From: Verrucomicrobiota bacterium JB022
GTDB lineage: Bacteria; Verrucomicrobiota; Verrucomicrobiia; Opitutales; Oceanipulchritudinaceae
Assembly (NCBI GenBank): GCA_030673845.1
Contig: JAUTCQ010000013.1
Location: 164,001 to 228,000 of the forward strand
Reading direction: 5' to 3'
Length of the DNA: 64,000 nt
The translations under genes were made by a program, and so were the position numbers. Positions 1,361 to 12,110 of this stretch are shown piece after piece. The notes beneath the pieces were generated by a model. It was not told the DNA's origin. It saw only the letters and a list, made by a program, of their open reading frames with translations, and ran no database searches. Numbering within the stretch: the stretch's first letter is position 1; each line of letters begins with the position of its first letter.

Positions 1361-1939
1361 TTACGCGCGACGGCGGCGCCACGCGGCAAAGCCGAGGGCA
1401 GCCACGCCACCCAGCAGGGCATAGGTTGTGGGCTCGGGTACGACCGGGGCAGGATTGCCCACCGTCAAGATGATCGAATCCGTGTTTTCGCCGGAGCCGA
1501 AGGTCCAGGTGTAGACGCCTTCGCTGAGGCCGATATCGGCAAACGCAGCGTCGGGAAAAGTCGTCGAGCCGGAGAGCGGAGCGCCGGAAGTGTAACCGAC
1601 GGGCACCACCAGCCGGTTCGAATCGAGCATAATCCCAAAGTGATCGCCTGTGCCATAAGGGTTGGCGATCACGCTACCGGCACCGAAGGAAGGACCACTC
1701 ACCACCGTGTAATAATCGAACAACGTGGCTGGTCCCAAAATCAGCCAACCCCAGTCCGGGTAAATGACGCCGGAAACGCTGCTCGGCGAGCTGCCGGAAG
1801 ATACCGCCCCCGTAAGGTCGATGCTGCCGGAGCCTACGAGCAGGATGTCGCCATCGACCTCCTGCGCATTGAAGTAGATGATCGCGTGCGCGGCAGGCGA
1901 GAGCAACGCCGCCAAAAGAAGAGAGATAGAGTGCCTCAT
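1361..1939 (-). CDS. PEP-CTERM sorting domain protein (paralogue 1)
   Basis: This is an exported protein of 192 residues. It has an N-terminal signal peptide (MRHSISLLLAALLSPAAHA) and a C-terminal PEP-CTERM tail: VPEPTTYALLGG, a hydrophobic helix and the basic end WRRRRA. In known systems such tails are recognised by an exosortase (EpsH/XrtA type), which cleaves near the PEP motif and delivers the protein to the envelope or extracellular matrix. The middle has no motif I recognise, but it resembles the neighbour at 2011-2586 and the gene at 11562-12110 (shared VPVGYTSGAPLS...FPDAAF pattern). A GGAGGA Shine-Dalgarno precedes the ATG. It is probably co-transcribed with the upstream paralogue, 71 bases away. 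No exosortase gene lies in the window. Confidence 0.88.
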   Translation of the reverse strand: MRHSISLLLAALLSPAAHAIIYFNAQEVDGDILLVGSGSIDLTGAVSSGSSPSSVSGVIYPDWGWLILGPATLFDYYTVVSGPSFGAGSVIANPYGTGDHFGIMLDSNRLVVPVGYTSGAPLSGSTTFPDAAFADIGLSEGVYTWTFGSGENTDSIILTVGNPAPVVPEPTTYALLGGVAALGFAAWRRRRA

Positions 1940-2010: not shown

Positions 2011-2586
2011 TTACGCGCGCCGGCGGCGCCATGCGGCAAAGCCGAAGGCCGCCACGCCACCCAGCAGGGCGTACGTCGTCGGTTCCGGCACGGCGGGAGT
2101 ACCGCCAATCGTCAGCGTGGCCAGATCGGCATTGACACCGCTGCCCCAGTTATAGGTGTAGACGCCCGCGTCCATCCCCAGGGATTCGAAGGTAGCATTC
2201 TCGATCTTGAAGGTGCTCGACAGAGAGGCGCCGGACACATAGCCCACCGGGAGGAAGATGGACGTCGCATCGATGCCGAAAAGGGAACCTTCACTCGTAT
2301 CAAACGTCGTAGAAGCGCCGCTGCCAAAATCCATCGGGGCAGAGGTGATACCGACGAACACCAACATAGGCGTCAAATCAGTGCCGGGGGAATTGATGAA
2401 TGAGGCAAAAGAAGGCGTGAGGTTGCCGTGAAGCGAATACGTATCGACGAGGCTAAGCCCCGCAGTGTCCACACTGCCCGAAAGCGTAAAGACGACATCG
2501 TCCAGAGATTCGTAAGCGGTGATGTTGACCGCCCCGTGGGCCCAGGAAGTTGCGGCAAGCAGAGTAAGAAGGGAGAAGAATCGCAT
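2011..2586 (-). CDS. PEP-CTERM sorting domain protein (paralogue 2)
   Basis: This is a 191-residue exported protein with a signal peptide (MRFFSLLTLLAATSWAHGA) and a PEP-CTERM tail ending VPEPTTYALLGG...FAAWRRRRA. The mature part begins VNITAYESLDDVVFTLSGSV, very close to VNITALEVSGDVVFTAAGTL in the paralogue at 11562, and it contains the shared block LPVGYVSGASLSS. At DNA level the last about 75 bases are nearly identical to those of the downstream paralogue, so the pair looks like a tandem duplication whose middle has diverged. The cargo function is unknown. The upstream 190 bases separate it from purB and hold the purB terminator. Confidence 0.88.
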   Translation of the reverse strand: MRFFSLLTLLAATSWAHGAVNITAYESLDDVVFTLSGSVDTAGLSLVDTYSLHGNLTPSFASFINSPGTDLTPMLVFVGITSAPMDFGSGASTTFDTSEGSLFGIDATSIFLPVGYVSGASLSSTFKIENATFESLGMDAGVYTYNWGSGVNADLATLTIGGTPAVPEPTTYALLGGVAAFGFAAWRRRRA

Positions 2587-7048: not shown

Positions 7049-7468
7049 CTAGAACGGGGCGACAATGGGGATGACGCGGCGCCCGAGGCGTTTGTAAACG
7101 GTGAAATCGTGGTCGAAGGTGAGCACACGGGCCTCCGGGAAGAGCTCGCTCATGCGCACGAGGCAGGCGTCACCGAGCGACATGGGCTGGGAGGCGTATT
7201 TACGCATTAACTGCGTAATGGCTTCCCGCTCGCGCATCAAGTCGAAGTCGACCACCAGCAGGCCGCGCTCCAGCAGCTTGAAGAGCGCCTCTACCCCGCC
7301 AGGCAGTTGCCCCAGCAGGTGTGCGGCCTCCGTCAACACCGGGCCGCAGGTGATCCACGGGGTCGGCAGGTGCTGGGCCTGACGGCGCACCCACGCATGG
7401 TGATGGTCGCGGCGGTAAAGGAAGGCCACCAGCGGGCCTTCGTCGACGATGATCTGCCCGCTAGTCAT
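7049..7468 (-). CDS. PIN-domain toxin (VapC-like)
   Basis: This 139-residue protein has PIN-nuclease features: the first acidic residue in IIVDEGPLVAFL (Asp9), a Glu in GPVLTEAAHLLG, an Asp in MSLGDACLVRM and a final Asp in VLTFDHDFTVYKRLG. PIN toxins of type II systems cleave RNA and are neutralised by the upstream-encoded antitoxin. The start ATG overlaps the antitoxin stop codon by 8 bases, so translation is probably coupled. VapC-like is by fold and layout; the target RNA is unknown. Confidence 0.88.
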   Translation of the reverse strand: MTSGQIIVDEGPLVAFLYRRDHHHAWVRRQAQHLPTPWITCGPVLTEAAHLLGQLPGGVEALFKLLERGLLVVDFDLMREREAITQLMRKYASQPMSLGDACLVRMSELFPEARVLTFDHDFTVYKRLGRRVIPIVAPF

Positions 7469-7712
7469 GGCCGAAGGAGTCGAACCACTTCTTGTTGCTG
7501 GAGAGGTCCAGAGGGGACTCTTCGTCGTTCAGGATACCGCAGAGGTCGCGGGCCGCCTCGAAAAACGAGCCCGGCTCCGCCGCACCCTCTTCCTCCGGCG
7601 CCTGCCGGATCAGCTCGCGAATAATGTCGGACTTGGTGAGCGAGCGCGCGGCACAGAGCCGGTCCAGCCGGTTCAGCTCCTCGTCCGTCAGTTTTACGCT
7701 CACCGTAGGCAT
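7461..7712 (-). CDS. Ribbon-helix-helix antitoxin for the PIN toxin
   Basis: This is an 83-residue protein. Its N-terminus MPTVSVKLTDEELNRLDRL, followed by RSLTKSDIIRELI, is a CopG/Arc-type ribbon-helix-helix DNA-binding domain. The acidic C-terminal half (SFFEAARDLCGILNDEESP) would wrap the toxin. A longer open frame exists upstream, but the residues there have no family character, and the ATG at 7712 lies about 16 bases downstream of the predicted transcription start. As in other type II pairs, autoregulation by the antitoxin is expected but not visible as a clear operator. Confidence 0.85.
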   Translation of the reverse strand: MPTVSVKLTDEELNRLDRLCAARSLTKSDIIRELIRQAPEEEGAAEPGSFFEAARDLCGILNDEESPLDLSSNKKWFDSFGHD

Positions 7713-7734
7713 GGGTAATACGAAAGAGCCACTG

Positions 7735-7763
7735 AGGTAAGACAAGCTAATCAGCCAAGTCAA
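7735..7763 (-). promoter_or_regulatory. Promoter of the PIN/antitoxin pair
   Basis: On the minus strand TTGACT (7763-7758) and TTACCT (7740-7735) are separated by 17 bases. This sets a transcript start about 16 bases upstream of the antitoxin ATG. Confidence 0.5.
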
Positions 7764-7828
7764 GTACCGGGGAAAGGAAAAAGGGGGCGCTTGAGAATAT
7801 GACCCGGCGCTGGGGGGCTGGCGTAGAC

Positions 7829-7856
7829 TTGACTCCGGGAGGGCTTCAAGTAAGAT
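7829..7856 (+). promoter_or_regulatory. Predicted antisense promoter of small-peptide unit A
   Basis: TTGACT (7829-7834), 16 bases, TAAGAT (7851-7856). It points into the 3' end of the convergent small-peptide transcript and would start RNA near 7863. The same hexamers at the same spacing occur at unit B (8143-8170). Confidence 0.5.
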
Positions 7857-8096
7857 AACCCAACGAAAGACGAGGAGCCGGACCAACGGCCCCTCGGGAT
7901 GCTATAGGTTTTGCCCTTTATTCATCCTTCTGCCGGATGATCGACCCGACTGCCAAAACAATCAGGAAGATCACGAGCAGGATCAGGAACAGAACAATAA
8001 GGTATTCCATTCCAACCTCCTTTCGTTGGGATTATCTGAGAAGCCCCCTGTTAGCAGCAGGGGGTTTTCCGTTTCTTTACGGAAAGTAACCCAACG
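7854..8096 (-). other. Structured transcript unit A around a 30-residue membrane peptide
   Basis: This is the predicted mRNA from the promoter at 8102-8130 to the 3' arm. In 5'-3' order it has CGTTGGGTTA at the very start, a TTTCCG/CGGAAA hairpin, a CCCCCTG/CAGGGGG hairpin, GATAATCCCAACGAAAG leading straight into AGGAGG, the ORF, a GAGGGGCCG/CGGCTCCTC hairpin, and the 3' arm CTTTCGTTGGGTTATC. The segment just before the Shine-Dalgarno can pair with either the 5' start or the 3' arm. Unit B has the same order with covarying bases. I infer a conserved regulatory RNA fold; the RNA itself is not demonstrated. Confidence 0.6.
7918..8010 (-). CDS. 30-residue single-span membrane peptide (unit A)
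   Basis: The predicted peptide begins MEYLIVLFLILLVIFLIVLA and ends with the polar tail RQKDE: one transmembrane helix with a charged C-terminus. A near-perfect Shine-Dalgarno, AAAGGAGG, ends five bases before the ATG. The paralogue at 8236-8310 keeps the start MEYL, the LFLILLVI core and a charged tail, while much of the surrounding DNA differs; this supports a real gene. Size, hydrophobicity and RNA context resemble type I toxins (for example Ldr, TisB or TxpA families), but there is no family match I can name. A small membrane regulator is the alternative. Confidence 0.65.
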   Translation of the reverse strand: MEYLIVLFLILLVIFLIVLAVGSIIRQKDE

Positions 8097-8101
8097 TGCC
8101 C

Positions 8102-8130
8102 ATGTAAGCCGCTAGCGAAGATTCGGTCAA
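8102..8130 (-). promoter_or_regulatory. Promoter of small-peptide unit A
   Basis: On the minus strand TTGACC (8130-8125), 17 bases, TTACAT (8107-8102). The expected start (about 8096) falls on the first base of the CGTTGGGTTA motif. Identical hexamers and spacing recur at unit B. Confidence 0.6.
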
Positions 8131-8142
8131 GCCTGCACGGAC

Positions 8143-8170
8143 TTGACTCCGAGCGGCCTTCAAGTAAGAT
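8143..8170 (+). promoter_or_regulatory. Predicted antisense promoter of small-peptide unit B
   Basis: TTGACT (8143-8148), 16 bases, TAAGAT (8165-8170), convergent to the unit B peptide gene. It is an exact repeat of the arrangement at 7829-7856. Confidence 0.5.
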
Positions 8171-8394
8171 AACCCTACGAAAGGCGAGGAACCGTGCTCC
8201 ATCACGGCTCCCCGGAAGGCTAAAGGGCTCTCGCCCTATTGCTCCTTCAACTGCTTAATGATCAGATAGATCACCAGCAGGATCAGAAATAGAATAGTGA
8301 GATATTCCATTTCAGACCTCCTTTCGTTAGGGTTATCTATGAGCCCCCTGCTATAAACAGGGGGTTTCCCGTATCTACGGAAAATAACCCAACG
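8168..8394 (-). other. Structured transcript unit B around a 24-residue membrane peptide
   Basis: Same architecture as the unit at 7854-8096: 5' CGTTGGGTTAT, TTTCCGT/ACGGGAAA hairpin, CCCCCTG/CAGGGGG hairpin with a different loop, GATAACCCTAACGAAAG before AGGAGG, the ORF, a GAGCCGTG/CACGGTTC hairpin and the 3' arm CTTTCGTAGGGTTATC. Where unit A has CCCAAC in both ORF-flanking arms, unit B has CCCTA(A)C in both, a compensated change. Confidence 0.6.
8236..8310 (-). CDS. 24-residue single-span membrane peptide (unit B)
   Basis: The predicted peptide is MEYLTILFLILLVIYLIIKQ followed by LKEQ: one hydrophobic helix and a basic/polar tail. AAAGGAGG lies a few bases before the ATG. It is a shorter paralogue of the 30-residue peptide at 7918-8010; start, core and Shine-Dalgarno are conserved, and the tail differs in length and sequence. 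It is expressed from its own promoter (8400-8428). Function unknown; a type I toxin or a small membrane regulator is inferred. Confidence 0.65.
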   Translation of the reverse strand: MEYLTILFLILLVIYLIIKQLKEQ

Positions 8395-8399
8395 GCGGC

Positions 8400-8428
8400 A
8401 TGTAAGTCGCTTCTGTCTGGTTGGTCAA
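8400..8428 (-). promoter_or_regulatory. Promoter of small-peptide unit B
   Basis: On the minus strand TTGACC (8428-8423), 17 bases, TTACAT (8405-8400); expected start at about 8394, the first base of CGTTGGGTTAT. Confidence 0.6.
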
Positions 8429-8452
8429 GCGCGCCCGATGCCGCCTGAGTCC

Positions 8453-8923
8453 CTAGGCCAGATAGGCCCACAGCTTGTCCTGTGAGGCGGCGTCGAGCTC
8501 GGTGAGCACGGGGATGACGTAAAGGTCGCCCGCGATGTCGCGGATCAAGATCTGGCCGTTTTGCTTCTGCTCGGGCCAGTCTTCGAGCTTGGTGGTGAAG
8601 GTGCGCGGCCCCTGCCTGGTGTCGACCTTCCAGAGGCGCAGCTCGAAGCGGCGGCTGATGCTTCTTACTCGGGTAATGCAGAAGACGAACGTCGTCTGTT
8701 CGAGTGCTTTCTTGACGGCCTCGCAGCTCTCGCGGTCGAGGTGACTCAGTTTCTCGACCAGCGCCAGTTCCTTGTCGTCTTCATCGCGTAACGACAGGAA
8801 CTCCCCCGCCCGCGACCACGGGAAGCATGGTCGCAAGCGCACACTGATCCACTGCTCCCCTTGCTGCAGGAGCAGGCGGCCGTCGTCCGCGAGCTTGAGG
8901 TGAGGTTGTTCCGTCTTCGTCAT
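8453..8923 (-). CDS. DUF1854 family protein
   Basis: This 156-residue cytoplasmic protein matches the DUF1854 pattern: an N-terminal part with GEFLSLRDEDDKELALVEKL, a centre with FVFCITRVRSISRRFELRLW, and IRDIAGDLYVIP near the end. No catalytic motif is known for the family. In other genomes DUF1854 proteins sit beside, or are fused to, a PH-like/ABC exporter, sometimes near cyanophycin genes. Here the exporter is the next gene upstream on the same strand (9113-11395), so the two probably form one operon interrupted by a 163-bp palindromic element. No cyanophycin gene is in the window, so that link is not supported locally. Confidence 0.85.
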   Translation of the reverse strand: MTKTEQPHLKLADDGRLLLQQGEQWISVRLRPCFPWSRAGEFLSLRDEDDKELALVEKLSHLDRESCEAVKKALEQTTFVFCITRVRSISRRFELRLWKVDTRQGPRTFTTKLEDWPEQKQNGQILIRDIAGDLYVIPVLTELDAASQDKLWAYLA

Positions 8924-8936
8924 AAGAAATTTATTG

Positions 8937-9099
8937 GAACAGGAGTTTGGGGAGTGAAAGGAGTTTTAAACAGAAGAACACAAAGAGCGCCAAGACGGTA
9001 AATTGGCCTCACTCCTATTTGCTTTCTTTGTGCTCTTTGCGGTCTTCTGTTAAACCTTTTTCTGAAGAACTCCTTTTTATTCTTTTTAAACTCCTGTTC
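8937..9099. repeat. Palindromic intergenic element, copy 1
   Basis: The ends GAACAGGAGTTT and AAACTCCTGTTC are perfect inverted repeats. Inside, AACAGAAGAACACAAAGAGC is mirrored by GCTCTTTGTG and TCTTCTGTT. It lies between the ABC exporter and DUF1854 genes. A second copy is at 38648-38803. Confidence 0.8.
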
Positions 9100-9112: not shown

Positions 9113-11395
9113 CTACACCGCGTACATCTCATGTAGCTCGCGCTGGATGTTGTGCAGCTTGGTGTAGACGCCGTCGGGGTTGTTCAATAGCTCGGCGTGG
9201 GTACCCGTTTCGACGAGCTTGCCGTCCTTCATCACAAAGAGGCGGTTGGCGCGGCTGAGGGTGCTGAGGCGGTGGGCGATGGCGATGACCGTGCGGCCAT
9301 GGATCAGGCGGTCGATGGCCTCCTGGATCTTGCGCTCGGTCTCGGTGTCGACACTGCTGGTGGCCTCGTCGAGGATCAACACCCGTGGGTTGTGCAAGAC
9401 AGCACGGGCAATCGACACCCGTTGGCGCTCGCCGCCGCTAAGCGTATGGCCGCGCTCGCCCACAATCGTGTCGTAGCCGTTGGGCAGCTTGCAGATAAAG
9501 TCGTGCGCGTTGGCGGCGCGGGCGGCCCCGATCACCTCGTCATAAGTGGCGTCCGGCTTCCCATAGCGAATGTTGTCGAGCACGCTGCCGTGGAAGAGAT
9601 ACGGGTCTTGCAACACCATACCGATCTGCTGACGCAGCGCGCCCAGCTCTACCTCGCGGATGTCGTGCCCATCGACGCGGATGGTGCCGGTGGTGGTGTC
9701 GAAGAAGCGCGCGATGAGGTTGATCACGGTCGTCTTGCCCGCGCCACTGGGGCCGACGAGGCCGATCATCTCACCCGGCTGGATCTCGAAGCTGACGCCC
9801 TTGAGGATCTGCCGCACCGGGTCGTAGCCAAAAGTAACGTCTTCGAAGACGATGTGGCCCTGCAGCGGGCGGATCTCGATGGGGTTCTCGACCTCGCGCA
9901 CCTCGGGCTCGGTATCGAGCACCTCGAAGACCCGCTGGGCGCTGGACACGCTGCGGTTGATCATGCGCGTGAGGTAGCCAAACATCTCCAGCGGCATCAC
10001 AAACATGCCCATGTAGAAGAGGAACGCCACAAACGTGCCTGTGCTCATCGAGCGGTAGCCCTCCACGCCCAACATGCGCGGGATGCCGAGGAACCACACG
10101 ACCACAATCAGGATGTTGACGCCCAGGTAGATCAACGGCCAGTGGCTCGTCCAGATCTGGTGCACCCGGCGCGCCTCCTCAAAGACCTTGTCGTTGCGCT
10201 GGTGAAAGCGGGCGCGCTCGTAGTCGCTCTGGTCGAAGGCCTGCACCACGCGGATGCCCGGCATGGTGTCAGACACGGTCGAAGTCATCTCGCTCCAACG
10301 CTGCCAGATGCGCAGGAACACGCGGTGCAGCTTGCGCCCCATCCACCAGAGCAGCAGGAAGAGCAGCGGCATGGGCAGCACGAGGATCAGGCCCAGTTGC
10401 CAGTCGAGGTACAGGAGGATGATGCCGAGCCCCGCCATCAGCGTGAGCCCAAAGAGCAGCTCGGCCACGCCAAACGCGATAAAGTCCCAGATACGGTCGG
10501 TATCGCTCGAGACGCGGCTGATGATGCTGCCCGTCTGGTGGCGCGAAAAAAAGCTGACCGACAGCCGGTGGAGGTGGTCGTAAAGCGTCCGGCGCAGGTC
10601 GCGCGCGATGTATTCGCCCAGGATCGAAAGCTGGTTGAGCCGCAGCCAGAGGAAAAATTCGCGGATCAGGTAGGTGCCGAGCAGGATGCCCGCGAGCCAC
10701 CACCCTTGCCGCAGGGCCTCGTTGGTCGTGATGTCGCCCTGCGTGGCCGGCGTCACCACATCGTCGATGATGTGACGCGTGAGGTAGGGCGGGACCAGCA
10801 TCATGGCGGTGAGGCCGATGGCGCCCAAAAGCCCTAGCGCGAGGTTGCGCCAATAGGGCTTGGCAAAGCCGGCCAGCCGCCGCAGCACCGAGGCCTGGTT
10901 TTGCGCTACTGTCGCCTGCGCGTCTCGGTTGGGCTTGGCCACGGCATCCGCATACAGGCTGTCGGGGTCGCCTTCGTAATGGATACGGTGCCCCTCCAGC
11001 GCCTGCTTGAGCACGAAGGCAATCGCGCCGACGGCGTTTTGCTGGCGAAAGCTGTAGCGCAGCGTGGCGAGGGCCGGCTGAGCCGGGTCCTTCCCCACCA
11101 GAATGAGCGTCGTGGCGCTGAGGCCCGTATGCTCCTCCACCTTGCCGATCTTGGCCCGCTGGATGAAGCGGATGTCGCCCTCGGCCCCGACCACCGCCAG
11201 CTGATGCTCGCTCATGGCCACCCAGCGCTCCGTTTGGTGCAAGTGCTCGTCGAGGTCGAGCAGGCCGTAGAGCATGACCGGCTCTCCGCCCCACCCTTCC
11301 TCGATCCGGGCCTTCAGCTCCGCCGGCATCGCCTCCGGTTGGTCCGTATAGGCGCGCAACATGGCGCGATCACGATCATGGGCGGCTGAAGGCAT
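9113..11395 (-). CDS. ABC exporter with N-terminal PH-like domain, DUF1854-associated
   Basis: This 760-residue protein is a half-size ABC exporter. Residues 1 to about 150 (GEPVMLYGLLDLDEHLHQTE...) form a PH-like regulatory domain found in the DUF1854-linked exporter family. About six membrane helices follow (roughly 170-470). The ATPase domain has Walker A GLVGPSGAGKTT, signature LSGGERQRVSIARA, Walker B VLILDEATSSVD and the switch His in IAIAHRLST. It should dimerise in the inner membrane and export an unknown, probably hydrophobic, substrate. The ATG at 11395 begins MPSAAHDRDRAMLRAYTDQP. Its partner gene is DUF1854 just downstream. Confidence 0.9.
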   Translation of the reverse strand: MPSAAHDRDRAMLRAYTDQPEAMPAELKARIEEGWGGEPVMLYGLLDLDEHLHQTERWVAMSEHQLAVVGAEGDIRFIQRAKIGKVEEHTGLSATTLILVGKDPAQPALATLRYSFRQQNAVGAIAFVLKQALEGHRIHYEGDPDSLYADAVAKPNRDAQATVAQNQASVLRRLAGFAKPYWRNLALGLLGAIGLTAMMLVPPYLTRHIIDDVVTPATQGDITTNEALRQGWWLAGILLGTYLIREFFLWLRLNQLSILGEYIARDLRRTLYDHLHRLSVSFFSRHQTGSIISRVSSDTDRIWDFIAFGVAELLFGLTLMAGLGIILLYLDWQLGLILVLPMPLLFLLLWWMGRKLHRVFLRIWQRWSEMTSTVSDTMPGIRVVQAFDQSDYERARFHQRNDKVFEEARRVHQIWTSHWPLIYLGVNILIVVVWFLGIPRMLGVEGYRSMSTGTFVAFLFYMGMFVMPLEMFGYLTRMINRSVSSAQRVFEVLDTEPEVREVENPIEIRPLQGHIVFEDVTFGYDPVRQILKGVSFEIQPGEMIGLVGPSGAGKTTVINLIARFFDTTTGTIRVDGHDIREVELGALRQQIGMVLQDPYLFHGSVLDNIRYGKPDATYDEVIGAARAANAHDFICKLPNGYDTIVGERGHTLSGGERQRVSIARAVLHNPRVLILDEATSSVDTETERKIQEAIDRLIHGRTVIAIAHRLSTLSRANRLFVMKDGKLVETGTHAELLNNPDGVYTKLHNIQRELHEMYAV

Positions 11396-11561
11396 AGCAA
11401 GAGGCAGGCTCGAAGCCGCAGCTAAGCACGAGATAGAGCCACTGTCGAATGAAACGCATGTTTAGGCCCTTGCGCACGGCTCACAACTTATAACCCCAAG
11501 AAGGGCTGTTTCTGGAATGGTGATTGACCCAACCGCGTTACCCGCTAAATCCGGAGGTGCA

Positions 11562-12110
11562 ATGCGCACATTGATTACGCTCTCTACCGTTTTCACCGTC
11601 TCTCTCACCGCCCACGCCGCCGTCAACATCACGGCTCTCGAAGTCTCGGGAGACGTCGTCTTCACCGCCGCTGGCACGCTCGACTTGAGCTCGCTGACTT
11701 TTGCGGGCTCAGGCCTGGCCTTTAACCAGATCAACGCCTCGGCGAGCTACCTCTCGATGGGGAGTGGTTTCGCGGACTCGTATATTTCGGTGACGGGGCC
11801 CTCCAGCTTTGGCACTAGTGAGTTTACCTCCTCCACCACCTTCAGCGGCGACGGCATCGTGTTCACGAGCACCAACTTGCTGGTCCCCGCTGGCTACGTC
11901 TCCGGCACCGCGCTCTCCAGCACGATGACTTTTGAAGACGCCACCCTCGAAAGCCTCGGACTGACACCCGGCAGCTATACCTGGTCGTGGGGTTCGGACT
12001 CAGCCACGCTCACCATCAGCGCCCCTGCGGTGCCCGAGCCCACCACCTACGCCCTGCTCGGTGGATTGGCGGCCTTGGGCTTCGCGGCATGGCGGCGGAG
12101 GCGCGGGTAA
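11562..12110 (+). CDS. PEP-CTERM sorting domain protein (paralogue 3)
   Basis: This is a 182-residue exported protein with a signal peptide (MRTLITLSTVFTVSLTAHAA) and the C-terminal tail VPEPTTYALLGGLAALGF ending WRRRRG. The mature start VNITALEVSGDVVFTAAG and the block LVPAGYVSGTALSSTMTFED tie it to the two tandem paralogues at 1361 and 2011. It is about 9 kb away and on the opposite strand, so it is a dispersed copy. GGAGGTG eight bases before the ATG fixes this start over an upstream in-frame ATG at 11517. Function as exosortase cargo is inferred from the tail only. Confidence 0.88.
   Translation: MRTLITLSTVFTVSLTAHAAVNITALEVSGDVVFTAAGTLDLSSLTFAGSGLAFNQINASASYLSMGSGFADSYISVTGPSSFGTSEFTSSTTFSGDGIVFTSTNLLVPAGYVSGTALSSTMTFEDATLESLGLTPGSYTWSWGSDSATLTISAPAVPEPTTYALLGGLAALGFAAWRRRRG

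Follow-up and report, generated by a model that had tools for sequence, protein, structure and literature searches.

The DNA considered here is a window of 64,000 nucleotides from Verrucomicrobiota bacterium JB022, and it holds two small units in tandem on the reverse strand, unit A, spanning about 8130-7829, and unit B, spanning about 8428-8143, which are diverged direct repeats of each other with 79-89% identity across five blocks, just as the tandem duplication proposed by the initial annotation would have it. All the elements which that annotation listed are present where it had placed them, including ORFs of 30 aa (8010..7918) and 24 aa (8310..8236) with AAAGGAGG upstream of each and, by folding, two leader hairpins and one 3' hairpin per unit. 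The features of the two units, with SD standing for Shine-Dalgarno, are:

Unit A, 8102..8130, reverse strand: sense promoter-like site TTGACC-N17-TTACAT (8/12)
Unit A, 8087..8096, reverse strand: predicted mRNA 5' end, X' (CGUUGGGUUA), complementary to the stretch upstream of the SD (21/500 shuffles as good)
Unit A, 8066..8085, reverse strand: leader hairpin 1 (folding)
Unit A, 8044..8064, reverse strand: leader hairpin 2, CCCCCTG/CAGGGGG (folding)
Unit A, 8019..8037, reverse strand: 5' arm of the long-distance helix, extending into the SD (18 pairs)
Unit A, 8016..8023, reverse strand: SD AAAGGAGG (sequence)
Unit A, 7918..8010, reverse strand: ORF of 30 aa, MEYLIVLFLILLVIFLIVLAVGSIIRQKDE, stop included
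Unit A, 7871..7896, reverse strand: 3' hairpin of 10 pairs with a terminator-like score, then TCTTTC (folding)
Unit A, 7853..7870, reverse strand: 3' arm of the long-distance helix, the anti-SD side (0/500 shuffles as good)
Unit A, 7829..7856, forward strand: antisense promoter-like site TTGACT-N16-TAAGAT, expected start about 7863 (9/12)
Unit B, 8400..8428, reverse strand: sense promoter-like site TTGACC-N17-TTACAT (8/12)
Unit B, 8385..8394, reverse strand: predicted mRNA 5' end, X' (6/500 shuffles as good)
Unit B, 8365..8384, reverse strand: leader hairpin 1 (folding)
Unit B, 8344..8364, reverse strand: leader hairpin 2 (folding)
Unit B, 8320..8338, reverse strand: 5' arm of the long-distance helix (18 pairs)
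Unit B, 8317..8324, reverse strand: SD AAAGGAGG (sequence)
Unit B, 8236..8310, reverse strand: ORF of 24 aa, MEYLTILFLILLVIYLIIKQLKEQ, stop included
Unit B, 8185..8214, reverse strand: 3' hairpin of 12 pairs (folding)
Unit B, 8167..8184, reverse strand: 3' arm of the long-distance helix (1/500 shuffles as good)
Unit B, 8143..8170, forward strand: antisense promoter-like site TTGACT-N16-TAAGAT, expected start about 8177 (9/12)

The two antisense-directed sites are the sole promoter-like sites of 9/12 in 7700-8460, where 50 shuffles give an expectation of 0.5 (sd 0.7), while the sense site, although it occurs in both units, reaches only 8/12 and lies below the 9/12 listing of the scan. At 8125-8148 the sense site of unit A adjoins the antisense site of unit B back to back, with 12 bases between the two -35 elements. 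Downstream of both units there is a vapBC-like type II toxin-antitoxin pair (7049-7712, reverse strand), composed of a PIN-domain protein (7049-7468) and, upstream of it, a ribbon-helix-helix protein (7461-7712), and this type II pair directly adjoins the candidate type I pair A/B. The other neighbor is a DUF1854 gene (8453-8923, reverse strand), related to a cyanophycin-metabolism-associated family at a score below that model's cut-off, and it adjoins in its turn an ABC-transporter-like frame (9113-11395, by eye); a long imperfect intergenic palindrome, perhaps a dispersed repeat, was also seen by eye at 8957-9090 (AGGAGTTTTAAACAGAAGA...CACAAAGAGCGCCAAGACGG / CTTTGTGCTCTTTGCGGTCTTCTGTTAAA), as were three predicted secreted proteins with a PEP-CTERM-like tail (VPEPTTYALLGG...RRRR) at 1361-1939 (reverse), 2011-2586 (reverse) and 11517-12110 (forward).

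What goes beyond the initial annotation is a pairing between the SD region and the mRNA 3' end, a 5' leader that competes with it, and additional copies of the unit, which occupies eight places across two species: intact A, B, C and F with decayed D, E and H in its own genome, and an intact G in a second species of the same genus (genome G001). The five intact units all have a stretch, here called X, that lies upstream of the SD, extends into it and pairs with the predicted mRNA 3' end, through helices of 18, 18, 19, 16 and 16 pairs in A, B, C, F and G that were equalled by 0, 1, 0, 0 and 0 of 500 dinucleotide-shuffled tails, respectively. The pairs were counted from the folds and the compensatory changes found by eye (the MAFFT alignment is off by one base in the 3' arm of C and is also wrong for F against G), and the helix proved to be altered on both sides at several places among A, B and C, as in CCCAACG/CGTTGGG (A), CCCTAACG/CGTAGGG (B) and CCTCAATG/CATTGAGG (C), while F and G make the same helix from other letters. 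Since A, B and C are close relatives (as are D and E), their agreement is not fully independent, and it is F and G that provide the more independent support. The whole folds of A, B and C have z scores of -8.2, -10.3 and -6.8, with 0/200 shuffles as good in each case. Thus, in the computed folds of five units, with shuffles and covariation in agreement, the mRNA structure hides the ribosome-binding site, and these folds, all of them thermodynamic predictions, predict that the complete mRNA of A-C is locked and that the SD opens on loss of the 3' arm.

The competitor is found at the other end of the same molecule, where X', the predicted mRNA 5' end, is complementary to X in A, B, C, F and the relic D. 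Shuffles matched this complementarity in 21, 6, 9 and 3 of 500 trials (A, B, C and F), which is modest in A; for relic D the leader complement scores 22, a figure that stands as a score alone, without shuffle comparison. A leader complement was not found in relic H (148/500 shuffles as good), and neither shuffles nor folds revealed a leader competitor in G. When the mRNAs of A, B, C and F were folded from their predicted start, the mean probability of the leader pairing with the SD region rose upon removal of the arm from 0.09 to 0.88 in A, from 0.27 to 0.97 in B, from 0.00 to 0.93 in C and from 0.11 to 0.88 in F, and the SD became unpaired from 0.19 to 0.68 (A), 0.13 to 0.73 (B) and 0.38 to 0.59 (C). 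With 8 nt of the arm retained, the SD is still closed in A (0.21) and B (0.13) and half open in C (0.51), so nearly all of the arm must go before the flip occurs. The leader of F masks part of the SD as well, leaving it mostly closed (0.15 to 0.28 unpaired), and in G removal of 20 nt raises the unpaired SD from 0.13 to 0.77. The combination expected of an AapA/IsoA-like mechanism, a 3' anti-SD and an SD opened by 3' truncation, is therefore seen in the computed folds of A, B, C and G, with F largely closed. The start codon lies inside a coding hairpin and is paired in most computed states, C being partly excepted; an open SD may therefore not be enough for ribosome access.

An opposing promoter-like site with a spacer of 16 is located at the end of the 3' arm at 9/12 in A, B, C and F, at 8/12 in relic E and at 7/12 in G, a stretch that also has two higher-scoring sites of 8/12; the background for at least 9/12 with spacer 16 is 3.2e-5 per position in the rest of the window. 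The antisense RNA predicted from this site would start inside the 3' arm and include the complement of the 3' hairpin. A convincing sense promoter was not found in F or G (best 8/12 and 7/12), nor was a clear terminator, either for the predicted antisense RNA or, past the 3' arm, for the mRNA. In unit A the 3' hairpin is itself terminator-like, and if it is used the mRNA would stop short of the complete arm.

The peptides of the five intact units are 22-30 aa long, with a 12-residue hydropathy maximum of 3.56-4.07, a common core of L, I and V, a charged tail and, in A, B and C, a start of ME or MD. They are also conserved in comparison with random change: when the same number of changes was simulated, 8 (A-C), 3 (A-B), 0 (C-B) and 17 (F-H) of 5000 simulations preserved the peptide as well, over 30 codons for A-C, the first 17 for A-B and C-B and the first 23 for F-H. 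Third positions account for 8/11 changes between F and H, 7/10 between A and B and 9/15 between B and C; between A and C they make up just 6/15 and are not concentrated, with replacements that are conservative. Length, hydropathy and conservative substitutions are those expected of a short hydrophobic toxin ORF under purifying selection. The PXXXGC motif, named for Fst/Ldr in the excerpted text of PMC8309996, is absent from all five peptides.

The additional copies came from several searches. A DNA search of the own genome recovered C (intact), D and E, and a covariance model (R1) built from the leader and ORF start of A-C, much as the initial annotation had suggested, was run against 17 genomes of the family and gave matches at E 0.03 and 0.35 that on reading are the divergent units G (G001, which has this one intact unit) and F (own genome). 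A peptide profile led to H, an F-like copy 1 kb from F that has lost its 3' side, and a second covariance model built without H (R2) recovered it at E 3.5e-5. F and G have little sequence in common with A-C, and blastn with unit A finds neither, yet they share the same anatomy: leader hairpin(s), a strong SD, a hydrophobic ORF of 22-30 codons with a charged tail, a 3' hairpin (in which F and G are alike) and an opposing promoter-like site.

Dispersed copies and a tandem pair are also what a structured non-autonomous mobile repeat would leave behind, with the ORF incidental, and relic E, in which one leader hairpin, the 3' hairpin and a weakened form of the antisense promoter survive and SD and ORF are both gone, could be read in that way. 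I consider this very improbable: the substitutions in the ORF conserve the protein; peptide, SD and helix persist in F and G, which blastn with unit A does not match; and in relics D and H it is the 3' side that is gone, while the SD and the start of the ORF remain. The initial annotation had named persisting flanks around a disrupted ORF as the pattern that would count against a toxin, and E shows this in part; D, however, has kept leader, SD and start codon with an ORF down to nine codons and no 3' side, H has kept the SD and ORF start with the 3' side lost, and because these two decayed in the opposite way to E the relics look like ordinary decay.

A short ORF with an SD, mutually exclusive hairpins and an intergenic position would likewise suit a leader peptide or attenuator governing the next downstream gene. 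Here the neighbors differ between units, which argues against it, since there is no common downstream gene: A/B are followed by the vapBC-like pair, C lies by an acetyl-CoA-synthetase-like frame and a convergent frame (products by eye), and F, next to ABC-ATPase-like and rpsP-like frames (by eye), precedes the rpsP-like one. Attenuation also leaves the opposing promoter unexplained, and I find it hardly conceivable as the function of these units. The neighbor of G is a tRNA about 230 bases upstream of its leader. In the own genome (C15, locus L043, 1380-2700) the decayed H and the intact F sit on either side of a single ABC-ATPase-like frame.

No convincing match was obtained in Rfam, Pfam, NCBIfam, PHROGs or PADLOC, in keeping with the initial statement that no named family is recognized, and hok/Sok and other type I families are curated in Pfam, NCBIfam or Rfam. 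Rfam gave no family at gathering score anywhere in the window and none at E 1 over 7780-8460, and in the loci L002, L020 and L010 its output was limited to the tRNA next to G and two sub-threshold matches, both on one stretch. Pfam had no family at cut-off for peptides A, B, C, F and G, nor NCBIfam for peptides A, B and C; profile matches were weak and below cut-off (e.g., Tad at E 0.016 and SMIM43 at E 0.0086), PADLOC had no match and PHROGs had weak matches only, the best at E 0.01.

The architecture itself can be used as a query, and a scan for an SD, a hydrophobic ORF of 12-50 aa and a 3' complement of the SD region was run on 329 kb (the window and fetched loci, partly overlapping), where it returned seven distinct candidates: A, B, C, F, G, H and L029, the last of these a viral contig with an unrelated ORF and a scan score of 36.0, above the 35 of G. 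On 654 kb from the two species, a sample in which some stretches had been picked for known units, it returned five candidates, namely C, F, G, H and one of 18.5, with a pairing score of at least 35 in three of them, C, F and G (intact units score 35-50.5).

Many sequence matches were pursued and set aside. Blastn with unit A in 37 genomes, the own one included, gave two short matches outside the own genome, and R1 gave weak matches in five other genomes of the 17 in the family besides the units and G, as well as two matches outside the own genome among 372 genomes of the order, all read as chance. The peptide profile A4 gave six weak loci in the family besides the units, without the architecture, and a match at E 0.3 or better in 22 of 372 genomes of the order (own and G001 included), with 0/23 other loci passing the architecture scan. 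With R2, run on 37 relatives and on 387 phylum genomes, 47 loci went into the architecture scan, among which is the own H/F locus, and three weak scan hits came up elsewhere, L078 (23.0), L092 (22.5) and L110 (28.5), with scores lower than the 35-50.5 of intact units. Among phages, blastn gave three short matches that were taken to be chance; among plasmids, tblastn searches with the A and F peptides came back empty; two patterns gave 0 and 7 viral contigs, the seven without the architecture at the site; and the 3' hairpin pattern of F and G in genome contigs gave five records, unit G and four Actinobacteria without the architecture. Neither the sampled order (372 genomes) nor the sampled phylum (387 genomes) yielded a further secure member, and as the searches were based on sequence and covered part of the phylum, they could have overlooked distant units of the same anatomy. 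Among the genomes sampled, the candidate family was found in two species of one genus, so that the new family for the Verrucomicrobiota proposed initially is narrowed in scope.

One of these matches deserves description in its own right. The locus L092 (1500-1705), to which R2 led at E 0.24, comes from genome G032 in a different family of the order and has a leader hairpin, an SD, a 24-residue hydrophobic ORF without a charged tail, a 3' hairpin and then CCTCCTCCTTTTTTT, which is T-rich and complementary to the SD (3/500 shuffles as good). Its whole fold is at -65.4 against -40.4 (sd 4.2) for shuffled sequence, with 0/200 as low. It lacks an antisense promoter-like site of 9/12, and a second copy was not found in 19 genomes of its family, where there was one other match of 19 bases. 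The pairing stretch may simply be its terminator; it is also possible that L092 is a real look-alike, and it is left outside the unit count.

Taken together, I consider it probable that A and B are two tandem members of a new candidate type I toxin-antitoxin family acting by the predicted lock and switch and an antisense RNA. The initial type I reading is strengthened by copies of unlike sequence with the same anatomy, by ORF changes that conserve the peptide, by an SD region that pairs with the mRNA 3' end in 5/5 intact units and by the opposing spacer-16 promoter-like site at the end of the 3' arm, again in 5/5 though weak in G. On the evidence of sequence, covariation and computed folds, the reverse-strand mRNA would have X' (CGUUGGGUUA) at its start and form two leader hairpins; in the complete mRNA the 3' end would pair with X and part of the SD over 16-19 bp, stacked on the 3' hairpin, so that the full-length mRNA would be translationally inert; and on loss of the 3' arm X' would take X, leaving the SD largely open in A, B and C for production of a single-span membrane peptide. 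From the promoter-like sites and by analogy with known systems, an antisense RNA begun on the forward strand at about 7863 and 8177 would pair with the 3' part of the mRNA, leading to decay or preventing activation, and once the antisense supply stops the peptide would damage the membrane or halt growth.

Small hydrophobic proteins are not necessarily toxic, and all the features seen (peptide, SD lock and opposing promoter) concern translation control, so the product could instead be a non-toxic small membrane protein, such as a stress-induced regulator of a membrane complex, kept under tight control by mRNA folding and antisense RNA. This seems rather unlikely to me, since dispersed copies, a tandem pair, relics and an occurrence in only two species of those sampled point more toward selfish or addictive modules than toward a housekeeping regulator, and a lock of this kind would suit a product that must never arise by accident.

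Comparison of the candidate toxin-antitoxin units with known type I systems reveals both likeness and difference. In txpA/RatA and bsrG/SR4 of Bacillus subtilis the antisense RNA convergently overlaps the 3' end of the toxin mRNA, a placement that is predicted here as well; these systems belong to an unrelated phylum and are set apart by the lack of a Pfam, NCBIfam or Rfam match and of recognized terminators in the units. Hok is a peptide of about 50 aa, in contrast to the 22-30 aa here, and hok/Sok differs further in that no Pfam or Rfam match was obtained and the antisense site of the units is at the 3' end. The likeness to hok/Sok lies in a very stable full-length fold, activation by 3' processing and a metastable 5' structure, all three predicted for the units, and in multiple chromosomal copies including inactivated ones (in part from excerpts of PMC6733600 and in part general background). 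AapA/IsoA of Helicobacter pylori, as portrayed in the same excerpts, shares with the intact units a small membrane peptide, long-distance pairing by a 3' anti-SD, activation by 3' truncation and an antisense RNA, the last three predicted here (PMC6733600). There, the full-length AapA mRNA is described as inert through its 3' anti-SD and hok as following the same logic of activation by 3' processing (PMC6733600), and a two-step rule appears in the excerpted text of PMC11228461 for type I mRNAs in general. Where AapA3 is described in those excerpts as hiding its SD in transient hairpins during transcription, in the computed folds of A, B and C it is the 5' leader that frees the SD after loss of the arm (PMC6733600). 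Hence what we have looks like a family without recognized relatives and with a 5'-end competitor, the mechanism itself looking to be of a known kind, as the same logic has been described for AapA and hok. To the fuller statement I would give even weight for and against, namely that X, lying shortly before the SD, has two competing complements in the predicted mRNA, one at its extreme 5' end and the other in its 3' arm, that a 3' loss of about 20 nt flips it from locked to open, that an antisense RNA starting inside the arm carries part of X, and that this is a type I family of Verrucomicrobiota which independently reached a minimal hok/AapA logic.

As for the wider setting, a paper from 2025 gives type I systems, in its excerpted text, as known only from Proteobacteria, Firmicutes and Tenericutes, with one proposed in Cyanobacteria, and attributes this apparent narrowness to bias in the search methods (PMC12390103). 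That proposal, MsoT1/MsoA1 of Microcystis, is like the units a type I candidate outside the three classical phyla, in a phylum different from theirs (PMC12390103, in excerpt). Full-text literature searches for type I toxin-antitoxin in Verrucomicrobia yielded no report among the matches listed. If confirmed, the units would extend type I systems to another phylum and provide a case of convergent evolution of an mRNA switch that is inert until trimmed, and the combination of an SD, a tiny hydrophobic ORF and a 3' complement of the SD region would offer a search recipe that is independent of similarity to known toxins.
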